This document shows, piece after piece, positions 43,575-54,034 of a stretch of DNA of 64,000 nt (positions are counted from its first letter, which is position 1; each line of letters starts with the position of its first letter). The position numbers and the translations under genes were made by a program. The stretch is from Aequorivita sp. H23M31 (lineage in GTDB: Bacteria > Bacteroidota > Bacteroidia > Flavobacteriales > Flavobacteriaceae): contig NZ_CP034951.1 of assembly GCF_004022485.1 (NCBI RefSeq), forward strand, positions 3,472,001-3,536,000, read 5' to 3'. The notes beneath the pieces are model-generated. The model did not search any database. It was not told where the DNA came from and saw only the letters and a program-made list of their open reading frames with translations.

Positions 43575-46500
43575 ATGAAAAAACTTACTTTTTTTCTCTG
43601 TGCGATATTTCTGACGATGGTCGGTTTTTCGCATGGTACTGAGCCCTATGCAGGCTTTGTAACTGCAACGGGAGACGGAAACGGAACTTTTAGTTCGTAC
43701 CAGGGATTAGCTTGGAGTACGATGGGCCAGTTAAACTGGATCGGAACTTCTGAAAGTCGTGTATTGGCCGGTCCTGGAGACACGTGCAATGACCCAGCTG
43801 TTATTACTTCTCTGCCATTTACTGTGACAGACAACACATCCAACTATGGCGATGATTACGGATCAGGTGATAGACCCCCTTCAGCTCCTAATGCGGTTGG
43901 AAATCCCAGCGGTAGTTACTTGCAAGGTGATGATGTGGTGTATGCTTACACTCCATCAGCAAACGGAGTAATCAATATCTCCGTAACCAATCATGATGCT
44001 TGGACTGGGTTGTTCGTCTTTACTGGGTGCCCTTTTGCGAGCACGGTAGGAGGACATACCAATTCTTCTGCTGCTGTACCTTTAGTAGTTAATGGGTTAA
44101 CGGTTAGTGCCGGCGTGACGTACTACATTGTAATCTCAACATGGCCTACTCCACAAAGTACTCCCTATACATTAACTATTGAGGCAGATGTTTTTGATTG
44201 TCCTGAACTAGAGGCTAACTTCGGAGATCCTTGTGATGACGGCAATCCGGATACATTGGGAGATTCAATAAATGAGAATTGCGAATGTGAAGGCATTGTG
44301 CCAGGTCCTGGTGCAGATTGCTCTTTGGCCATTTCTTTAGATTGTAATGGGGAACCAGTAACTTATGATTCCATAGGAAGTACTGCAACCAACACCACTA
44401 CCTGTTCAATGGGTAATGCTGGTTTATGGTTCACTTTTACAGGTACAGGAAATACCATAACCATTAATTCCTCTGCTCCTTTTGACCATGAAATGTCAAT
44501 TAATTCCGGAAGTTGTGAAAGCTTGACGAATATAGCGTGTAAGGATGGATCGACAGGTGCTGAAACCTATACTATGGCAACTTCAGTAGCAGGACAGGCT
44601 TATTACGTGTACATTGCTCATTATGCATCTGGCAATACCACTACAGAAGCTATTACCATTAGCTTGGTATGTGCTACTTCTTTTGACTGTCCAGAGCTTG
44701 AGGCAAATTTCGGAGATACTTGCGATCTTGGTGGTGGCGAAACTGGAGTAGTAAATGCTGATTGTGAGTGTGAGGCGGTTAGCTGTCAAAATACTACTAA
44801 ATATCCGTTCGCAGCTATAACTCCAAATCCTACTGGGGAATCTACTACTATTTCCGGTTGTACTTATTGGTCAGAATATTCTGAAATAACCGGTATTATA
44901 GCTGGCTATGACTACCAATTTGATTCTGTTAAAGCCGGAGTAAGCGCATATGTTACAGTTCGGGAAGGAAGTGTCGGAGGCCCTGTAGTAGCCAAAGGTT
45001 ACGGCCCTCTTACTGTTACTGCACCCTCATCCGCTAATCTTTTTGTTCATTGGAATGCAAATGCGGAATGCGGAACAGCAACTGGTTGTGCAACATCTAC
45101 AGTATCCTGTGTTTCCTGCGCTACAGAACTTGATTGCGAGGGGGTTCCAGGAGGACCTGCCCAACCAGGTACTCCTTGCGATGACGGAGATCCAAATACC
45201 CTAAATGACGTATATGATGAAGATTGTAATTGCGCAGGAGTAATTCCATCCCCTGGAGATTCTTGCGATCTTGCAATAGCAATTTCTTGTGATGATGAGC
45301 CAGCTACTTATTCAACTGCTAACTCCGTTGCTACCAATGTTACTACTTGTACAATGGGCAGTAGAGGAATTTGGTTTTCATTTGAAGGTACGGGAGCCGA
45401 TATTACTGTCAACTCCTCTGCCACCTTTGATCATGAGATGTCTATTAACACTGGATCCTGTGAGGAATTAGTGAATATTGTTTGTAAGGACAGCTCTACT
45501 GGTGCTGAATCATATACAGTAGCAACAACCGTTGCCGGTCAAATGTATTATGTCTATATAGCTCATTACAGTTCTTCGGGTACAACAACTGGTGATATAA
45601 CTATTAGTTTGGATTGTGCCGTGGTACCAGAATGCGTTGCTCCAGAATTGACCCTTACCGCACAGGATGCCAATGGCGGTGCAATAGAATGTCTTGAAAC
45701 TGGAGGTGAATATTACGTTCTTGCCTCGCTTTCAGGGGGTGAAGGAAACGCATCGTATAATGTTGCGGTAAATGATTTCGACTTTGTTGAAGTACCTGCT
45801 GATGGTTCTGCCGTTTTCGGACCTATCGCTGCTGGAACAACTGCCAATGCCAGTGCCATTGGGGTTCAGGATCAGGATTGTGTCGCTTATGCTACATTGA
45901 CCTCTCCTGGCATATGTGCTCCTGCAAATGATGGTTGTGATGGTGCCGTGGCTTTGGTCTGTGGCGAAACTATTACCGGATCTACCGTAGGCGCAACAGC
46001 ATCCGGAATGGATTCCACTTGTAACGGCTATACCTCATCTTCTGCTCTGGATGTATTCTATACATTTGAGGCAGATGGTTCAAGTAACTATACCATTACT
46101 TCAGATGCAGTTCAAGGGTCATTCTTTGATGGTGTCCTTTATGTATATTCAGGTGCCTGTGGAGAGCTTAGCAATATTGACTGCTCCGATTCAGGTAACC
46201 CGGAGTCAATAACTTTGGAGGCTCCAGAAGCTGGAACTTACACTGTTAGACTTTATCGTTATTCAGGAACAGGCGAATTTACGCTCGGATTGGAATGCTC
46301 TTCTGCTCCAGAATGTGTTGCTCCAGAATTGACACTTACAGCACAGGATGCCAATGGCGGTGCAATTGAATGTCTTGAAACTGGAGGTGAATATTACGTT
46401 CTTGCCTCGCTTTCAGGGGGTGAAGGAAACGCATCGTATAATGTTGCGGTAAATGATTTCGACTTTGTTGAAGTACCTGCCGACGGTTCTGCCGTTTTCG

Positions 46501-49500
46501 GACCTATCGCTGCTGGAACAACTGCCAATGCCAGTGCCATTGGGGTTCAGGATCAGGATTGTGTCGCTTATGCTACACTGGAATCTCCAATGATCTGCCC
46601 ACCATCCAATGACGATTGTGACAACGCTGTGCAGTTGGCTTGTGGTCAACCAATAACCGGTAGTACCGTCAATGCGACTGCTTCTGGTCTTCCAGCCACA
46701 TGTAACGGCTATACCTCATCTTCTGCACTTGATGTATTTTATAGTTTTGAGGCAGATGGTTCAAGTAGCTATACCGTTTCATTAAATGCAGTTGAAGGTT
46801 CATTCTTTGATGGTGTCCTTTATGTATATTCAGGTTCCTGTGGAGAGCTTACCAATATTGACTGCTCCGATTCGGGCAACCCCGAGACAATAACCTTGGA
46901 GGCTCCAGAGGCTGGAACTTACACCGTTAGACTATACCGTTATTCAGGAACAGGCGAATTCACGCTCGGATTGGAATGCTCTTCTGCTCCAGAATGTGTT
47001 GCTCCAGAACTTACGCTTACAGCAAAGGATGCCAATGGTGATGCAATAGAATGTCTTGAAATTGGAGGTGAATATTACGTTCTTGCCACGCTCTCAGGGG
47101 GTGAAGGAAACACATCCTATAATGTTGCGGTAAATGATTTCGACTTTGTTGAAGTGCCCGCTGGTGGCTCTGCCACTTTTGGTCCCATTGATGCGGATAC
47201 TATGGCAAATGCCAGTGCCATAGGTGTGCAGGACGGAGATTGCGTGGCCTATGCAACCCTTAATGCTCCTGTTACCTGTGCCCCGGCCAACGACGACTGT
47301 CTGGATGCAATAATGCTCTCCTGCGATGATTCCGTTGAGGGAACTACCTATGGTGCCACTTACAGTGGACTGACCGATGGCTGTACCTCACGTTCAACGG
47401 GAGACGTTTTCTATACACTTGCTGTTGAGGCAGGCAATGAATATACCGTAACTGTTATTGGTGAAGATTATGATGCCGTCCTAGCAATCTATAGTGGAAC
47501 TTGTGGTAGTTTAACTGAAATAGCCTGTGCGGACAATGGATTTAGTGCTGGTATGGCAGAAACCATTACCTGGACTGCTGATGCTACCGAAACCGTGGTT
47601 ATCAGAACTTACGATTGGAGTTCTTCTGCAGGAAGCTTTACTATTAGTGTTGAGTGTACTTCTGCTCCAGAATGTGTTGCTCCAGAATTGACTCTTACAG
47701 CACAGGATGCCAACGGTGGTCCTGTAGAATGTCTTGAGGTTGGTGGGGAGTATTACGTTCTTGCCTCGCTCTCAGGGGGTGAAGGAAACACATCCTATAA
47801 TGTTGCGGTAAATGATTTCGACTTTGTTGAAGTGCCCGCTGGTGGCTCTGCCACTTTTGGTCCCATTGATGCGGATACTATGGCAAATGCCAGTGCCATA
47901 GGTGTGCAGGACGGAGATTGCGTGGCCTATGCAACCCTTAATCCTCCTGTTACCTGCGCGCCAGACAACGATGATTGTACAGATGCAATGATGCTTTCTT
48001 GCGGTGATTCTGTTGAAGGAACTACTTATGGTGCTACTTATAGCGGTACCACAGATGGTTGTTCTTCCCGTACTTCTGGAGATGTTTTCTATACTCTTAA
48101 CGTAGAAGCGGGCAATGAATATACCGTAAGTGTTATTGGTGAAGATTATGATGCGGTCCTAGCAATCTATAGTGGAACTTGTGGTAGTTTAACTGAAATA
48201 GCCTGTGCGGACGATGGTTTCTCTGCAGGTATGGCAGAAACTATTACCTGGACTGCTGATGCTACCGAAACGGTAGTAATCAGAACCTACGATTGGAGTT
48301 CTTCTGCAGGAAGCTTCACTATCAGTGTGGATTGTACTCAAGGTGGAGGTTCTTGTGATGAGAATGCATTTGTTACCACCTGGAGGACTACCTCTGCAAA
48401 TGAGACCATTACCATTCCGACCTATTTGGGTGAAACCTATAACTATACTGTAGAATGGGGCGATGGCAGCAGCGATAGCAATGTGGGTGGCAATATTACC
48501 CATACATACGCAAATGCTGGAACCTATACTGTTTCTATCTGTGGTACTTTCCCCCGCATATATTTCAACAACACTGCTACCAGCAGAATGAAGTTGAGAT
48601 CTATCGAGCATTGGGGGACCAATGTATGGTCTTCCATGAACGGTGCATTTGCCGGAGCGGAGAATATGGTAAGTAATGCTACCGATATGCCAGATCTATC
48701 AATGGTTACCGATATGTACGGAATGTTCGCATATGCCAGATCCTTTAACGGAGATGCCAATTTTGGCAACTGGGATGTTGGCAATGTTACCAACATGGCC
48801 GGTATGTTTGGCGGTGCCTCAGTTTTCAACTACCCTATCGGGGGCTGGGACGTGGGCAGTGTGACCAATATGGCACAGATGTTCAATGGGGCCACCCTCT
48901 TCAATCAGGATCTTGGGGCCTGGAATGTTGCCAATGTTTCCAATATGGAAAGAATGTTCAGAACGGCAATGAGGTTCAACCAAGACATTGGCTCCTGGAA
49001 CGTTGGTAGCGTGACGGATATGAGCTATATGTTCTTTCACGCCAATAGGTTCGATCAGGACCTAGGTGGCTGGGACGTAGGCCAGGTCAACGATATGAGG
49101 AGAATGTTCAAGAACGTTACCCTGTCCAGGGACAATTACGATTCGCTGCTTAACGGATGGAGCTCACTACCTACGCTTAAGCAAGGCGTGACCTTCGACG
49201 GTGGCAACAGTAAGTACTGTGCGGGTGAGCCGGGCAGGATCACCCTGACCTCAAGTCCAAACAATTGGATCATTACTGACGGCGGAAAGGATTGTTCAAT
49301 CCCGTTCAATGGAGATAGGATAGATGAAAGTGCCACCATATTTGCAATTTCTTTGTACCCGAACCCCATGAAGGGACAGTTGAACCTGGGCAATCCCAAT
49401 AGTGCTGAGCTTGAGAGTGTTTCTATTTTTGATCTGACCGGTAGGTTGGTCCAAAAAGTAGAGCTCAACGGCCTCGCTACTGGAACTGTGATCGATGTTT

Positions 49501-49580
49501 CCAGACTATCAAGTGCCACTTATATGGTCTTGGTTAAGGGCAGGCAAGGACAGGCCACGGAATTGTTGATCAAGGAATAG
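43575..49580 (+). CDS. Giant T9SS-secreted multidomain adhesin (2001 aa)
   Basis: Signal peptide MKKLTFFLCAIFLTMVGFSH; an N-terminal PPC-like domain about 60-205; short Cys-rich linkers of the type PCDDGNPDTLGDSINENCEC (three variants); PPC-like domains; four Cys-flanked modules starting near 686, 914, 1140 and 1366, alternating with PPC-like domains (unit ~226 residues); a PKD-like domain near 1596; five DUF285-type repeats about 1696-1853; a T9SS type A sorting domain about 1922-2001. About 0.6 kb near 45.35-45.9 kb is nearly identical to 38.96-39.5 kb of adhesin 2, a second patch besides the 3' block. Expected at the cell surface or released; ligand unknown. Confidence 0.9.
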   Translation: MKKLTFFLCAIFLTMVGFSHGTEPYAGFVTATGDGNGTFSSYQGLAWSTMGQLNWIGTSESRVLAGPGDTCNDPAVITSLPFTVTDNTSNYGDDYGSGDRPPSAPNAVGNPSGSYLQGDDVVYAYTPSANGVINISVTNHDAWTGLFVFTGCPFASTVGGHTNSSAAVPLVVNGLTVSAGVTYYIVISTWPTPQSTPYTLTIEADVFDCPELEANFGDPCDDGNPDTLGDSINENCECEGIVPGPGADCSLAISLDCNGEPVTYDSIGSTATNTTTCSMGNAGLWFTFTGTGNTITINSSAPFDHEMSINSGSCESLTNIACKDGSTGAETYTMATSVAGQAYYVYIAHYASGNTTTEAITISLVCATSFDCPELEANFGDTCDLGGGETGVVNADCECEAVSCQNTTKYPFAAITPNPTGESTTISGCTYWSEYSEITGIIAGYDYQFDSVKAGVSAYVTVREGSVGGPVVAKGYGPLTVTAPSSANLFVHWNANAECGTATGCATSTVSCVSCATELDCEGVPGGPAQPGTPCDDGDPNTLNDVYDEDCNCAGVIPSPGDSCDLAIAISCDDEPATYSTANSVATNVTTCTMGSRGIWFSFEGTGADITVNSSATFDHEMSINTGSCEELVNIVCKDSSTGAESYTVATTVAGQMYYVYIAHYSSSGTTTGDITISLDCAVVPECVAPELTLTAQDANGGAIECLETGGEYYVLASLSGGEGNASYNVAVNDFDFVEVPADGSAVFGPIAAGTTANASAIGVQDQDCVAYATLTSPGICAPANDGCDGAVALVCGETITGSTVGATASGMDSTCNGYTSSSALDVFYTFEADGSSNYTITSDAVQGSFFDGVLYVYSGACGELSNIDCSDSGNPESITLEAPEAGTYTVRLYRYSGTGEFTLGLECSSAPECVAPELTLTAQDANGGAIECLETGGEYYVLASLSGGEGNASYNVAVNDFDFVEVPADGSAVFGPIAAGTTANASAIGVQDQDCVAYATLESPMICPPSNDDCDNAVQLACGQPITGSTVNATASGLPATCNGYTSSSALDVFYSFEADGSSSYTVSLNAVEGSFFDGVLYVYSGSCGELTNIDCSDSGNPETITLEAPEAGTYTVRLYRYSGTGEFTLGLECSSAPECVAPELTLTAKDANGDAIECLEIGGEYYVLATLSGGEGNTSYNVAVNDFDFVEVPAGGSATFGPIDADTMANASAIGVQDGDCVAYATLNAPVTCAPANDDCLDAIMLSCDDSVEGTTYGATYSGLTDGCTSRSTGDVFYTLAVEAGNEYTVTVIGEDYDAVLAIYSGTCGSLTEIACADNGFSAGMAETITWTADATETVVIRTYDWSSSAGSFTISVECTSAPECVAPELTLTAQDANGGPVECLEVGGEYYVLASLSGGEGNTSYNVAVNDFDFVEVPAGGSATFGPIDADTMANASAIGVQDGDCVAYATLNPPVTCAPDNDDCTDAMMLSCGDSVEGTTYGATYSGTTDGCSSRTSGDVFYTLNVEAGNEYTVSVIGEDYDAVLAIYSGTCGSLTEIACADDGFSAGMAETITWTADATETVVIRTYDWSSSAGSFTISVDCTQGGGSCDENAFVTTWRTTSANETITIPTYLGETYNYTVEWGDGSSDSNVGGNITHTYANAGTYTVSICGTFPRIYFNNTATSRMKLRSIEHWGTNVWSSMNGAFAGAENMVSNATDMPDLSMVTDMYGMFAYARSFNGDANFGNWDVGNVTNMAGMFGGASVFNYPIGGWDVGSVTNMAQMFNGATLFNQDLGAWNVANVSNMERMFRTAMRFNQDIGSWNVGSVTDMSYMFFHANRFDQDLGGWDVGQVNDMRRMFKNVTLSRDNYDSLLNGWSSLPTLKQGVTFDGGNSKYCAGEPGRITLTSSPNNWIITDGGKDCSIPFNGDRIDESATIFAISLYPNPMKGQLNLGNPNSAELESVSIFDLTGRLVQKVELNGLATGTVIDVSRLSSATYMVLVKGRQGQATELLIKE

Positions 49581-49640: not shown

Positions 49641-50057
49641 GTTTGCTATGCATGTTCATTATCTATAGGGTTAAAGTCCCGAACGAGCTTATTTTGACGA
49701 GAACCGTTAGTTGAGGGGAAAGGTCTTTGCCGTGAGGTAATCCCGATAGCTATCGGAAGAAAGAAGCCTAAAACAAAAGTCGGTACCAACGAACACAAAC
49801 TGCATACTAAGGCTTGCCCGGAGGGTTATGTGGCAATAGACACAGACGCCCGAAAGTCGTCCATAATTCAGGGTAGTAAATGCAGTGGTATTGACTGGAA
49901 GATAATGGACTTAACGTAGGAGGTCTCCAGCCCGAGAGGGGTGGAGAAGTCAGCAGAGGCCATAGTACCGGTACCGGTATAAGTATTGGGTAACGCCAAT
50001 ATAGGGAAGGGCCGAATTTTCAATTAAGGAGCAGTAGTTCTGTAAATCGTAACATCT

Positions 50058-51494
50058 ATGATGAAGCCAGAAAAATACGAAAGCTCTCAGATGGGTCTTT
50101 TTGACGAATGGGAGTGTAACCAAACGGTGGAAGGCACTGACATATTCAGTGTCCGAAGCGGTCTGGTAAGGCGTGAGTGGCTGTCGAGGTGCAGAAAAGA
50201 ACGAGCCTTGACCCAAGATTTGATGAGTGAGATAGCGGACTTAAAGAATCTTGATACCGCATTGCGGAAAGTAATCAGTAACAAGGGCAGTGCAGGCATT
50301 GACGGAATAAACGTTGAAGAATTAGGGGGTGGTTTTCCACCCACTACCAAGGACTTCAACACCAGTTAATGGCAGGCACCTATCAGGTTACGGCAGTTAA
50401 AGAGGTATTGATAACCAAACCGAACGGCGGTAAACGCCAGTTCGGCATCCCACGGTTAAAGACCGCTTGGTACAACAATCTATAAGCCAAGTATTGTCAA
50501 AACGCTATGGCCCCACATTCTCAGACCCCAGCTACGGCTTTCGCCCCAAGCGCAATGCCCATCAGGCACTGCGCAAAGCAGGTGGTTATGTAGCAGAGGG
50601 CAAGAATAGGAGCGTCGATATAGACTTGGCGAAATTCTTTGACGAAGTGAACCACGATTGTTTGCTGTGGCAGCTAAGCACCCGTATTGGCGACAAGAAA
50701 GTGCTTAAACTGATTGGGAAATTCCTTCGGACAGGAATGTTGAGCGGAGGAATGACCAGTCAGCGGGTAAATGGGACGCCACAGGGCATTCCGTTGTCCC
50801 CGCTACTGTCCAATATCGTTTTAGACGAACGGGACAAGGAACTGGAGCGAAGAGGACACGGTTTTGTGCGATATGCCGAGGACATTATTATCATGGTCGG
50901 GAGCGAACTGGCATCAGAACGAGTGATGAAAAGCCCTTCAGAGTTTATCGAAAACCGAATGCGGCTAAAGATAAACAAAGAAAAGAGCCAAATCATCCGA
51001 CCTTATCAACTCAGTTTTCCTGGACATAGCATTTTAATGGACGGAAGTTTAGGACTGATCCGAAAGAGCTTACAACGCTTCAAGGCGAAACTTAAACAGC
51101 TTACCAAACGCAACAGGGGCATCAGCTTTGAGCAAATGATAAGTGAATTAAACCCTGTTCTTCGGTTGGCTGAACTACTTCAAATATGCAAAAATGAGAA
51201 ACCGTTTAGGCGGAACAGAAGCTTGGCTGCGTCGGAGATTAAGGTGCTACCGTTTAAAACAATGCAAACGGGCATTGGGCAAGGTTTTTGACAAAATTGG
51301 GCGTCCCCTGGAACCGAAGTTGGACAACAGCAGGAAGTTCCAGAGGATGGTTTAGGTTGTCAATGACCCACACTGCACACGAGGGAATGAACCTGAAATG
51401 GTTCAAGAAAAGGGGATTGTATAGTTTAACAGCCAATTACGGTTCACCATTGAGAAAACCGCCTAATACGAGAGACGTACGTTGGGTGGTGTGA
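50058..51494 (+). pseudogene. Group II intron reverse transcriptase/maturase, multiply frameshifted
   Basis: Pieces of one LtrA-like protein lie in different frames: RT0-RT1 (ALRKVISNKGSAGIDGINVEEL) up to about 50330, then AGTYQVTAVKEV..KPNGGKRQFGIP (from 50369), then DRLVQQSISQVL to the RT core (from about 50450: YGFRPKRNAHQAL, DIDLAKFFDEVNH, GTPQGIPLSPLLSN), then GWLNYFKYAKMRNR (from 51164) and finally KWFKKRGLYSLTANY. At least four shifts are needed. In addition the catalytic YADD box reads YAED. The protein is therefore very probably inactive. Confidence 0.9.
51457..51490 (+). ncRNA. Group II intron domain V
   Basis: ACCGCC pairs with GGTGGT, inner arms TACG / CGTA close a short AGAGA loop, with a two-base CG bulge and the CGC triad at 51460-51462, as in domain V. 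Its pairing looks intact although the maturase is decayed. Confidence 0.8.
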
Positions 51495-51712
51495 GATGAC
51501 ATCAAAGTTAGGAATGATCACCTACCTTTGCTTCCTACTCGATTGTTTGTCGTTGTTACTACTTTTAGTAGCTCTTTGCGTACTGAAACCTATTTAGGTA
51601 AATAGCGTCCTATCTAATTTTATTTAAACCGGAATAAATTTTCCCAGAATCATGTTGGTAGGAATTTCCTTTCTAAATAGGCGAAATACTTAATAAAAGG
51701 GGAAAAACCCTC

Positions 51713-51743
51713 TTGTCTTGAATAAAGATATATTACATCTTTG
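51713..51743 (+). promoter_or_regulatory. Promoter of small RNA 1 (TTG-N20-CATCTTTG)
   Basis: TTG 51713-51715, CATCTTTG 51736-51743. Upstream AAATACTTAATAA..GGGG..ACCCTC is shared with unit 3. Confidence 0.6.
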
Positions 51744-51749
51744 TTTTAC

Positions 51750-51827
51750 TTTATAATTAATTGGGGAGTTAACATAAAGTTGAGTTTAAGAAAAGGTTGT
51801 TTGTGAAAGCATTCAACCTTTTTTTTT
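51750..51827 (+). ncRNA. Candidate small RNA 1, about 78 nt
   Basis: Between the promoter above and an intrinsic terminator (AAAGGTTG / CAACCTTT plus nine Ts, 51792-51827). The body begins with a stem ACTTTAT / ATAAAGT whose loop contains AATTAATTGGGGAGTTAAC. The first 36 nt from ACTTTAT are identical in unit 2. No ORF. No known family recognised. Confidence 0.6.
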
Positions 51828-52218
51828 CAATTTCAAAGTAAATAATTAATCCTGCTTCGCTCTCAAAAATTCAAATATGTGTTATAGTATCAAAAGCATT
51901 TCTTTTTTTATTATTAAAAAAAAGTTGTGATAATTCAAAATTCGACTATGAGATTCTATAATTCACATTTTGGTTGATCCCAAATTGCGATTTTTCGTAA
52001 ATAGAAATTCCATACGCCAGCTAAGATTCTGGCTCTTGGCGAACCTTCCAATCTATTTTGAATATTTTTAGGACCCACTCTTGCTTCACTAGGGCAATGA
52101 GATCTTTTGGATTTGACCGTAGAATCAAGATTTTCCTCAGATGCGGATGATGAGAAAAATTAATACCTTCTATTTTTGCTAATGGGGAAAAACCTAGGGA
52201 ATTAGAGGAAAAATCCTC

Positions 52219-52249
52219 TTGATTCGAGATGAGGTTTATTGCATCTTTG
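52219..52249 (+). promoter_or_regulatory. Promoter of small RNA 2 (TTG-N20-CATCTTTG)
   Basis: TTG 52219-52221 and CATCTTTG 52242-52249, again with 20-nt spacing and an upstream ATCCTC. Confidence 0.6.
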
Positions 52250-52255
52250 TTATAC

Positions 52256-52332
52256 TTTATAATTAATTGGGGAGTTAACATAAAGTTGATTTGAAAAAAG
52301 GTCGCCTGGATAAATCGGGATGACCTTTTTTT
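52256..52332 (+). ncRNA. Candidate small RNA 2, about 77 nt
   Basis: Same 5' stem-loop with the GGGGAG loop as unit 1, then a different terminator hairpin with arms AAAAAAGGTC / GACCTTTTTT. The conserved 5' part with divergent but functional terminators suggests selection on the 5' hairpin. Confidence 0.6.
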
Positions 52333-52704
52333 ATTCTTATACGTAATATTCCAAAATCATCAAATCACTGTATAGGCAAGATCCCTTTTACTTTGGTGTA
52401 TACATCGTTTTATATAATCAAATTTCATTTCTGGCAGAATTTGAATCAATAAAACGACCTCTTTTTTGAATACTGAACGTCTTTAAACTCCAAGAAAACT
52501 TTTAAAAGTAAAATAAAAGTTCTGACTACCGTGAAATTATTGATTTCAATTAGATGTCCTAAATTCAGAATTTTTTAATAACTCTGGATCCCAAATTGAA
52601 TTTCTTTAATATGTTAAGTGGACTAAATAAAAGCTGAGGAATAATAGATTTTTAAAAAAATTGCGAGATAGGAAAAATACTTAATAATATGGGGCAAATA
52701 CCTC

Positions 52705-52735
52705 TTGAGAATATTTGAAAAATGGGGCATCTTTG
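52705..52735 (+). promoter_or_regulatory. Promoter of small RNA 3 (TTG-N20-CATCTTTG)
   Basis: TTG 52705-52707 and CATCTTTG 52728-52735; 20-nt spacing for the third time. Confidence 0.6.
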
Positions 52736-52741
52736 TGAGGC

Positions 52742-52810
52742 TTATTAGATTAATGTGGTTTTTAAATATTAATGAATACAAAGGTTGCCCCTCGAATAGG
52801 CAACCATTTT
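52742..52810 (+). ncRNA. Candidate small RNA 3, about 69 nt
   Basis: Promoter as in units 1 and 2, but the body has diverged: the 5' stem is ATTAAT / ATTAAT and the loop has GTGGTTTTT. It ends in hairpin GGTTGCC / GGCAACC with a weaker T tail. Confidence 0.5.
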
Positions 52811-53001
52811 AATTGATATTTATCATCTTTTGTAGCTCTTAATAGAAAAAATAATTTTAATAAAAGCTTTTTATTTGATTTTTTTGGAAAAATTAGTCTT
52901 AACATTAATTCCAAACGATCGATTTGGGGAGATGAATATTTTATAAGTGGGATTAAGATTCGGAATAGAATTCTCGTTTGATGAAGTGTTAGTATTAGCC
53001 A

Positions 53002-53037
53002 AAATACCCTGTTCTTTATGAAGCAGGGTATTTTTAT
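53002..53037 (+). terminator. Terminator of a possible fourth, degenerate unit
   Basis: Arms AAATACCCTG / CAGGGTATTT plus Ts. About 75 nt upstream is GATTTGGGGAG, resembling the loop of units 1 and 2, but no clear promoter is seen. Confidence 0.7.
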
Positions 53038-53215
53038 TTTAATAATCTAAACTTAATTAAATACATTTTCTTGGGTTAAAAATGACTAGAAAAATCTCTC
53101 TTTTAACCCAAACCCTACTTGAATTTTCAATATAAAATGTTCGAAGGAAACTGGATATATTAAGAAATCTCTTTAATTTTGAAATCAAGCTATTTTATTT
53201 TTTTCAATAAATTTG

Positions 53216-54034
53216 CTACAATTGATTAATGGTTTTGCGAATCGCAACGAGATCGGTAAGTAACTTTTCCAGAAGATTTAAATTGAGCATATTGGCGCCA
53301 TCACTTTTGGCATGGGCAGGATCGAAATGAGTTTCAATAAAAATTCCATCCGCTCCAGTAGCAATTCCTGCTCTCGCAATAGTAGAAATCATTTCTGGCC
53401 TTCCTCCAGTAACACCAGCACTTTGATTGGGTTGCTGTAAGCTGTGCGTTACATCTAGTACAACAGGGGCAAACTGTTTCATTGTTGGGATCCCACGAAA
53501 ATCCACAATCATGTCTTGATAGCCAAACATAGTCCCGCGATCAGTTATAAGTATCTGGTTGTTTTTGCAATCTGTTACCTTGGTAACGGCATATTTCATG
53601 CTCTCGGGACTCATGAATTGACCTTTTTTTAAGTTTACTACTTTCCCTGTTTCCGCAGCTGCAACCACCAAATCTGTTTGTCGAACTAGAAATGCTGGAA
53701 TTTGCAAAACATCCACATATTCTGCTGCCATAGAGGCGTCACTAACATCATGAATATCCGTAACCGTTGGAACATTAAAGGTTTCGGAAACTTTCTTTAG
53801 GATTTTTAATGCTTTTTCATCACCAATACCCGTGAAGCTATCTATACGGCTTCGATTGGCTTTTTTGAAGCTTCCCTTAAAAATGTATGGTATTCCCAGT
53901 TTATCAGTAATTGTAACAATTTTTTCAGCGATATGCAGGGCCATTTCCTCACCTTCGATCGCGCAGGGGCCTGCGAGAAGAAAAAAGTTATTGGAGGTTG
54001 CATGTTTTATCTTAGGAATGAGCGCTAGTTTCAT
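53216..54034 (-). CDS. kdsA: 3-deoxy-D-manno-octulosonate-8-phosphate synthase
   Basis: It condenses arabinose-5-phosphate and PEP to Kdo-8-phosphate, the first committed step to Kdo for LPS. The 272 residues match. Motifs include FFLLAGPCAIEG, FKGSFKKANRSRIDSFTG, TDIHDVSD, LQIPAFLVRQTDL and the substrate loop DVTHSLQQPNQSAGVTGG. An Asn in place of the metal Cys (LLAGPCAIEG has Cys) was not found, so the metal-dependent class is more likely. waaA, two steps later, is at the left end of the window. Confidence 0.95.
   Translation of the reverse strand: MKLALIPKIKHATSNNFFLLAGPCAIEGEEMALHIAEKIVTITDKLGIPYIFKGSFKKANRSRIDSFTGIGDEKALKILKKVSETFNVPTVTDIHDVSDASMAAEYVDVLQIPAFLVRQTDLVVAAAETGKVVNLKKGQFMSPESMKYAVTKVTDCKNNQILITDRGTMFGYQDMIVDFRGIPTMKQFAPVVLDVTHSLQQPNQSAGVTGGRPEMISTIARAGIATGADGIFIETHFDPAHAKSDGANMLNLNLLEKLLTDLVAIRKTINQL

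Follow-up and report, generated by a model that had tools for sequence, protein, structure and literature searches.

A conserved array of putative tandem small RNAs beside kdsA in Flavobacteriaceae and its possible control by a two-component system

A 64,000-nucleotide stretch of the genome of Aequorivita sp. H23M31 (hereafter, the window) carries next to kdsA, an LPS-sugar gene, a tandem array of short units that appears to represent a conserved and probably regulatory RNA family. Among the explanations considered here, the best, and one that we hold to be probable, is that a two-component system drives tandem sibling small RNAs which would act in trans, forming a circuit like that of OmrA/OmrB in genomes without detectable Hfq. 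A first-pass annotation of the window had proposed a multicopy sRNA family, a proposal strengthened by the conservation of the units across genera, by their covarying 5' hairpin and by the presence of a promoter and a terminator in each unit. Its description of units 1 and 2 was accurate, whereas the operator palindromes and the kdsA synteny described below were absent from it.

RESULTS

Tandem units and promoters in the window

The features of the array and of its conserved neighbour are given below in window positions; unit start sites were placed from the promoters.

51700..51711, + strand: proximal operator box of unit 1, GGGAAAAACCCT, with the TTG one base 3' of it
~51679-51690, + strand: distal operator box of unit 1, degenerate, recognised by eye
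51713..51743, + strand: predicted promoter of unit 1, with -33 TTG (51713-51715), N20 and -7 element CATCTTTG (51736-51743)
51748..51829, + strand: predicted body of the unit 1 sRNA (match to RNA model R1, E 4.2e-9, the unit being in the training set)
51748-51780, + strand: 5' hairpin of unit 1, with GGGGAG at 51763-51768
51788-51799/51814-51825, + strand: terminator stem of unit 1, with T-run
52184..52217, + strand: double operator of unit 2, GGGGAAAAACCT (52184-52195) and AGGAAAAATCCT (52206-52217), 22 bp apart
52219..52249, + strand: predicted promoter of unit 2, TTG (at 52219), N20 and CATCTTTG
52254..52334, + strand: predicted body of the unit 2 sRNA with its own terminator (R1 match, E 5.3e-8, the unit being in the training set)
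52254-52286, + strand: 5' hairpin of unit 2, with GGGGAG at 52269-52274
52692..52703, + strand: proximal operator box of unit 3, GGGCAAATACCT
52705..52735, + strand: predicted promoter of unit 3, TTG-N20-CATCTTTG
52741..52815, + strand: body of unit 3, a putative diverged or decayed copy without the GGGGAG loop
52783-52805, + strand: terminator-like stem of unit 3, with a weak T-run
52917..52960, + strand: possible remnant of a kdsA-proximal unit, with GGGGAG (52926-52931) followed by TTTTATAAGT as in the third units of relatives
53216..54034, - strand: kdsA (3-deoxy-8-phosphooctulonate synthase), the convergent conserved neighbour of the array

As the first-pass annotation had stated, three copies of the promoter TTG-N20-CATCTTTG are present (their TTG at 51713, 52219 and 52705), and units 1 and 2 have an identical 36-nt hairpin sequence with GGGGAG while their terminators differ. 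Its assignment of all three units to one family holds for units 1 and 2, which are intact, but only in part for unit 3, which has the promoter and no GGGGAG hairpin. Likewise RNA model R1, built from 30 units including units 1 and 2, matches these two units of the window's genome (G000) and not unit 3. Because the GGGGAG loop is absent and the T-run weak, we read unit 3 as a diverged or decayed copy that would have kept its promoter and operator; the proximal boxes of all three units are retained in the window. The GGGGAG at 52926, for which neither a promoter nor a box was seen in the sequence, may be what is left of a kdsA-proximal copy.

Units 1, 2 and 3 gave folding z-scores of -4.6, -4.9 and -2.3, respectively. 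When only the 5' hairpin stretch of unit 1 was folded, the result was not unusual (z -1.1), and the structural case therefore rests on comparison. At the gathering score, a search of the window against Rfam returned only two group II intron families, and the best sub-threshold match inside the array was Yfr11 (25.3 bits, threshold 44), in agreement with the earlier remark that no named RNA family could be recognised.

On the other side of the array lies a group II intron (49739-51494, +; RF02001, RF01998), whose reverse-transcriptase ORF is broken across several frames and apparently degenerate, and reads YAED in place of the usual YADD. Directly upstream of the intron, positions 43575-49580 (+) encode a secreted repeat protein of 2001 aa, the C-terminal part of which, by eye, resembles a sorting domain. 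A strong hairpin with T-runs on both strands separates the array from kdsA (53001-53041) and looks, by eye, like a bidirectional terminator.

Distribution and synteny of the array

Homologous tandem units are present in several genera, beyond what chance would give. A DNA search returned matches in 24 of 118 genomes (E <= 0.01; own genome included, some matches weak), and at many of the loci read in relatives, two or three units follow one another in tandem, each of them with a promoter and a terminator of its own. Among 397 genomes of the family, strong R1 matches (E < 2e-5) were obtained in 30, own genome included; the R1 units counted are those at this threshold together with units confirmed by reading in G178, G187, G191, G385 and G356 (genome labels are ours). 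Weaker R1 matches (E > ~1e-4), part of which were read, mostly resembled AT-rich terminators. Of 395 genomes sampled across the order, five had a match at E <= 1e-4, those in the own genome and in G068 being real and those in G552, G279 and G701 being judged terminators by eye. Besides units 1 and 2, R1 also matched the own genome at C1:931875, and it matched G016 at C1:194689; both sites are ordinary gene terminators and were discarded. Occurrences of GGGGAG near kdsA in G184 and G169 were not unit-like.

Scanning named genomes for the exact core yielded 102 stretches. Genera among the 80 titles listed were Aequorivita, Ulvibacter, Altibacter, Marixanthomonas, Cochleicola, Aureisphaera and Luteirhabdus, together with marine bins and apparent chance matches in Microcystis and others. 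For G025, a genome of the same genus as the window's, 150 nt around unit 1 recur without a difference in the A. capsosiphonis record. On 49 of the 102 stretches kdsA was also present, and at these loci every unit (86 of 86) lies on the 3' side of kdsA and runs toward it, with two units at 24 loci, one at 19, three at 5 and four at a single locus. Five further stretches have the promoter and box with no kdsA on the stretch; the remaining 48 have neither kdsA nor this pair, and most of their listed titles name unrelated organisms or unplaced bins. The link to kdsA is less tight in two genomes, G068 and G187, where the array is ~4 kb and ~6 kb away from it, respectively. As far as sampled, the family seems to be concentrated in one part of the Flavobacteriaceae.

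The array had earlier been placed between a selfish intron and envelope-polysaccharide genes. The kdsA side of this neighbourhood is conserved, but no reverse-transcriptase ORF was seen by eye in the loci of six relatives. In two relatives, a separate hairpin is found, by eye, between the array and kdsA.

The 5' hairpin covaries around an invariant loop

The first-pass annotation had made its claim depend on conservation of the hairpin in related genomes, and such conservation was found. In 82 of 83 distinct units, at least 4 bp close across the core and leave GGGG unpaired. Pairing of the core's own flanks averages -8.5 kcal/mol, compared with -6.3 kcal/mol for swapped flanks, and none of 200 shuffles was as good. 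Across 57 distinct 24-mers, 94.2% of the cells are paired and the covariation score is 0.133, where shuffles give 0.085 and slid controls no more than 0.081. Doubly changed cells number 9, against 1.7 in shuffles; two slid controls reach 11 and 10 such cells, but with pairing of only 20.6% and 49.6%. Most stretches having been fetched by the exact core, alignment A2 overstates how conserved the inner stem is; the stems that vary derive from neighbouring units and from genomes found other than by the core scan. The clearest cases belong to such genomes: in G356 the whole stem is replaced and the loop kept (GAGUCGAUU-GGGG-AGUCGACUC), and G359 and G191 have yet other stems with the GGGG loop retained. 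By covariation, the 5' hairpin is shown to be under selection as a predicted structure, which makes the family a covariation-supported candidate for Rfam.

The terminators also covary, as expected of any terminator, and at some loci the 5' part is longer and hairpin-like by eye. A closed ATG ORF is absent from 47 of 86 unit bodies, the longest one having 25 codons.

Candidate targets of the exposed loop

The first-pass annotation had suggested that GGGGAG could pair with CUCCCC in mRNAs, a suggestion that stays a lead. In eight genomes, loop complements with at most one mismatch numbered 189, versus 105 for the reversed control, array self-matches included. Perfect complements outside the arrays, listed for seven genomes (G346 in part; three G136 loci held array sites only), amount to five, near the three to four that a rough estimate from composition gives. 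For four of these five, the site falls, by inferred starts, in the leader or among the first codons of a gene encoding a secreted or surface protein, which was noticed post hoc. Two of the four are orthologous and have a poly-C tract. Sites with one mismatch, however, were not significantly enriched at gene starts (7 of 60, drawn from three of the eight genomes, versus 2 of 29 control sites from 30 loci of eight genomes; Fisher p 0.71). Duplex energies were discarded, as they mostly reflect terminators. Hfq (PF17209) was detected in none of 12 genomes, while 5 of 14 control genomes were positive.

These figures bear on an alternative in which the RNAs would titrate or carry a protein recognising the GGGG(AG) hairpin, of Csr/Rsm-like or RRM type, the number of copies setting the dose and no base pairing taking place. 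Such a role would suit an invariant loop on a stem of free sequence, several near-redundant copies and perfect loop complements without clear excess over the rough estimate. It would leave aside, however, that terminator arms and flanks differ between copies, as expected of base-pairing siblings, and that loop complements exceed their reversed control as given above; we consider it somewhat unlikely. Trans-acting base pairing by the array RNAs is a reading that we hold with moderate confidence, and envelope targets are at this point a lead only.

A predicted operator common to the array and a two-component operon

A promoter was recognised in 75 of the 86 units, 74 of which have sufficient upstream DNA. 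In 69 of these 74, a palindrome AGG-N6-CCT (pattern R-G-(G/T)-N6-C-C-Y) lies one base 5' of the -33 TTG, and in 64 of the 69 another box, conforming to the strict pattern, lies 22-24 bp further upstream. The background frequency of the box was 18 in 78,640 bp of other loci, an approximate value as these are mostly coding. Searching nine genomes for the box gave 29 matches (reversed control, 17). Of the 29, 11 belong to arrays, 4 to a kinase/regulator cluster, 2 to curlin genes and 12 to other sites.

The cluster sites concern a kinase of a first type in G163 and G374, and of a second type in G065 and G271. The operon of the first type consists, in this order, of genes for a small protein, a membrane protein, a HisKA_3 kinase and a LuxR-type response regulator, with HisKA_3/HATPase_c domains in the kinase and Response_reg/GerE domains in the regulator by profile search. 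At L239-L242 and L290, the first genes encode the small protein (~115 aa or a longer version) and the membrane protein; those tested matched no Pfam or NCBIfam model, and the two proteins could possibly form a sensing module for the kinase.

The first kinase is closely matched (E <= 4.2e-82) in 27 of 30 array genomes searched, the exceptions being G014, G023 and G431. Boxes lie upstream of the kinase operon in 23 of these 27 genomes, 22 of the 23 falling within one 105-bp stretch of the locus, and 13 of the 27 have two boxes 20-25 bp apart. In the four others, G000 (the window's genome), G001, G068 and G261, no box was found upstream of the operon. Among 16 further kinase-operon stretches, a box was present somewhere in 11 and absent from 5. 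The array promoters and the two-component operon are thereby shown to have a predicted operator in common, and because the paired box recurs at both in most of the genomes looked at, the response regulator is a testable candidate controller of the RNAs.

Kinase and array also tend to occur in the same genomes: of the 397 genomes of the family, 41 have the kinase (E <= 1e-75), 30 the array (E < 2e-5) and 27 both, giving a Fisher p of 2e-28 that ignores kinship, and shared ancestry inflates this co-occurrence. Diverged units were present in five more kinase genomes (G178, G187, G191, G385 and G356), and five genomes (G014, G023, G431, G162 and G359) have arrays without the first kinase at the cut-off. 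No array was found in 9 of the 41 kinase genomes, eight of which were read over ~1.5 kb 3' of kdsA, the ninth, G275, having no detected kdsA. In 11 kinase-less genomes, GGGGAG was found in none within 1.5 kb 3' of kdsA.

In G016 and G001, both Aequorivita genomes, a curlin gene too has a double box upstream; in G016 the box is followed by putative CsgE-, CsgF- and CsgG-like genes. None of the other curlin loci and leaders examined showed a double box when the strict pattern was applied. A single box is present in loci of G065, G136 and G147, in one case ~270 bp upstream of a curlin gene of G065; in addition, G025 has one loose box at a curlin locus and G147 a one-mismatch box between two curlin genes. 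Curli as a general target or partner was rejected, the double box being found at only two curlin loci. The long curlin mRNA leaders at L289 and L243 contain repeated UAUCCC(C)UUA-like motifs common to G001 and G016; pairing with the UAUCCCC motifs was dropped as only ~5 nt of the loop matched by hand. At L287 (G147:C54), a second, diverged kinase/response-regulator operon lies one gene from a curlin gene.

Conceivably, the AGG-N6-CCT boxes are bound by another regulator, either from a second kinase/regulator paralogue or an unrelated protein, which would also control the first kinase operon and leave the sRNA reading as it stands. Boxes do precede the second, more diverged kinase operon in G065 and G271 as well as two curli operons, and for two of the five array genomes lacking the first kinase, G014 and G023, the best match is of the second type. 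The strongest association conserved in position is nevertheless that with the first kinase operon (23 of 27), and inverted repeats are where LuxR-type dimers are expected, as for NarL-type regulators. We regard control by another regulator as unlikely. In a further reading, the units are mere terminators or insulators that keep transcription from running through between kdsA and the gene convergent with it, their promoters being cryptic and no free sRNAs being made. Their intergenic position convergent with kdsA and their terminator ends would fit. For termination, however, no copy would need its own promoter, paired operator boxes and covarying 5' hairpin, and the separate hairpin seen by eye between array and kdsA in two relatives also speaks against this reading, which we judge highly improbable.

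DISCUSSION

A model of the circuit

In the two-component model that we prefer, the array would produce tandem sibling RNAs of ~80 nt, each from its own promoter and ending at its own terminator, and each presenting a GGGG loop (UUGGGGAG) that is invariant, on a stem whose sequence varies. A response regulator of the NarL/LuxR type, the product of the operon encoding the small protein, the membrane protein, the HisKA_3 kinase and the regulator, would bind the two AGG-N6-CCT palindromes that immediately precede the -33 element and switch transcription on. In many activator-dependent promoters the operator box abuts the -33 element, and as the proximal box does so here, the regulator of the two-component operon is likely to activate the array rather than to repress it. 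The same boxes at the regulator operon in most genomes suggest that the regulator would also control itself. The RNAs would then act in trans, the exposed loop and perhaps also the variable terminator arm pairing with mRNA leaders, the targets being envelope or surface-protein mRNAs.

In the window's genome, this circuit may be eroding, as no box was found at the kinase operon, no curlin repeat was found in the genome and the third unit is decayed.

Relation to known small RNAs

The OmrA and OmrB sRNAs of Escherichia coli (88 and 82 nt) are tandem siblings that are alike in some parts and diverge in others, and they are transcribed under a two-component system. Their described targets include envelope genes and the circuit reaches curli, control of csgD requiring Hfq (PMC12692685, PMC4211561). 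The array resembles them in its tandem siblings, its link to a two-component system and its contact with curli (here in two genomes). The regulator of OmrA/OmrB is of the OmpR type, whereas that linked to the array is of the NarL type (GerE/LuxR); OmrA/OmrB depend on Hfq, whereas Hfq was detected in none of the 12 genomes searched here; and, compared by description only, the shared parts are the two ends in OmrA/OmrB and the hairpin loop in the array. The array may work like Omr, but is not Omr.

Within the same phylum, FopS of Bacteroides thetaiotaomicron is a multicopy family of 14 copies with a conserved part and a terminator and with a structure deposited in Rfam, its conserved seed being predicted single-stranded at the 5' end (PMC11697453). 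The array is likewise multicopy with a conserved part and a terminator, but has one to four units per locus rather than 14 copies per genome, and its core is a covarying stem-loop instead of a single-stranded seed, which sets it apart from FopS. Its promoters carry operator boxes, whereas the consulted part of the FopS description mentions no regulator operator. Rfp18 of Flavobacterium psychrophilum, from the same bacterial family, is an sRNA conserved beyond the species, linked to secreted proteases and described as pairing through a third stem-loop (PMC9723704); the likeness to the array, compared by description only, lies in being an sRNA of this family conserved beyond a species, and F. 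psychrophilum is absent among the 80 titles listed of the 102 exact-core stretches. The Qrr sRNAs of Vibrio are several siblings activated by one response regulator, LuxO, from scattered loci (PMC4211561). The array would share with Qrr the control of siblings by one response regulator, as proposed here, but its units are in tandem.

No description of this kdsA-side array was found in the open-access library searched. Paralogous units each with a promoter and a terminator are what tandem sibling sRNAs under a two-component system would be expected to have, and the array appears to be a new RNA family of this known kind. From the open-access papers searched, our impression is that regulation by sRNAs has been little explored in Bacteroidota other than Bacteroides. 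Here the structure of the family is defined, its genomic position is usually 3' of kdsA, and both a regulator and an operator can be proposed, making the circuit testable.

A more specific version, which we put forward tentatively as a possibility, is that the NarL-type system drives its own operon, the GGGG-loop RNAs and some curli genes, that Hfq-free pairing of the loop represses surface-protein mRNAs at their starts, and that the whole would form a self-regulating, envelope-sensing circuit of marine Flavobacteriaceae. The candidate targets to consider first have a perfect loop complement at their start: the gene for the secreted protein with the poly-C tract, found in two Aequorivita genomes, one for another surface protein, and one that is receptor-like. 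In the first of these (L342 and L353, ~1500-1600, oriented), the leader contains a site perfectly complementary to the sRNA loop, and a run of ~11 C, which suggests phase variation, follows a few codons into the gene.
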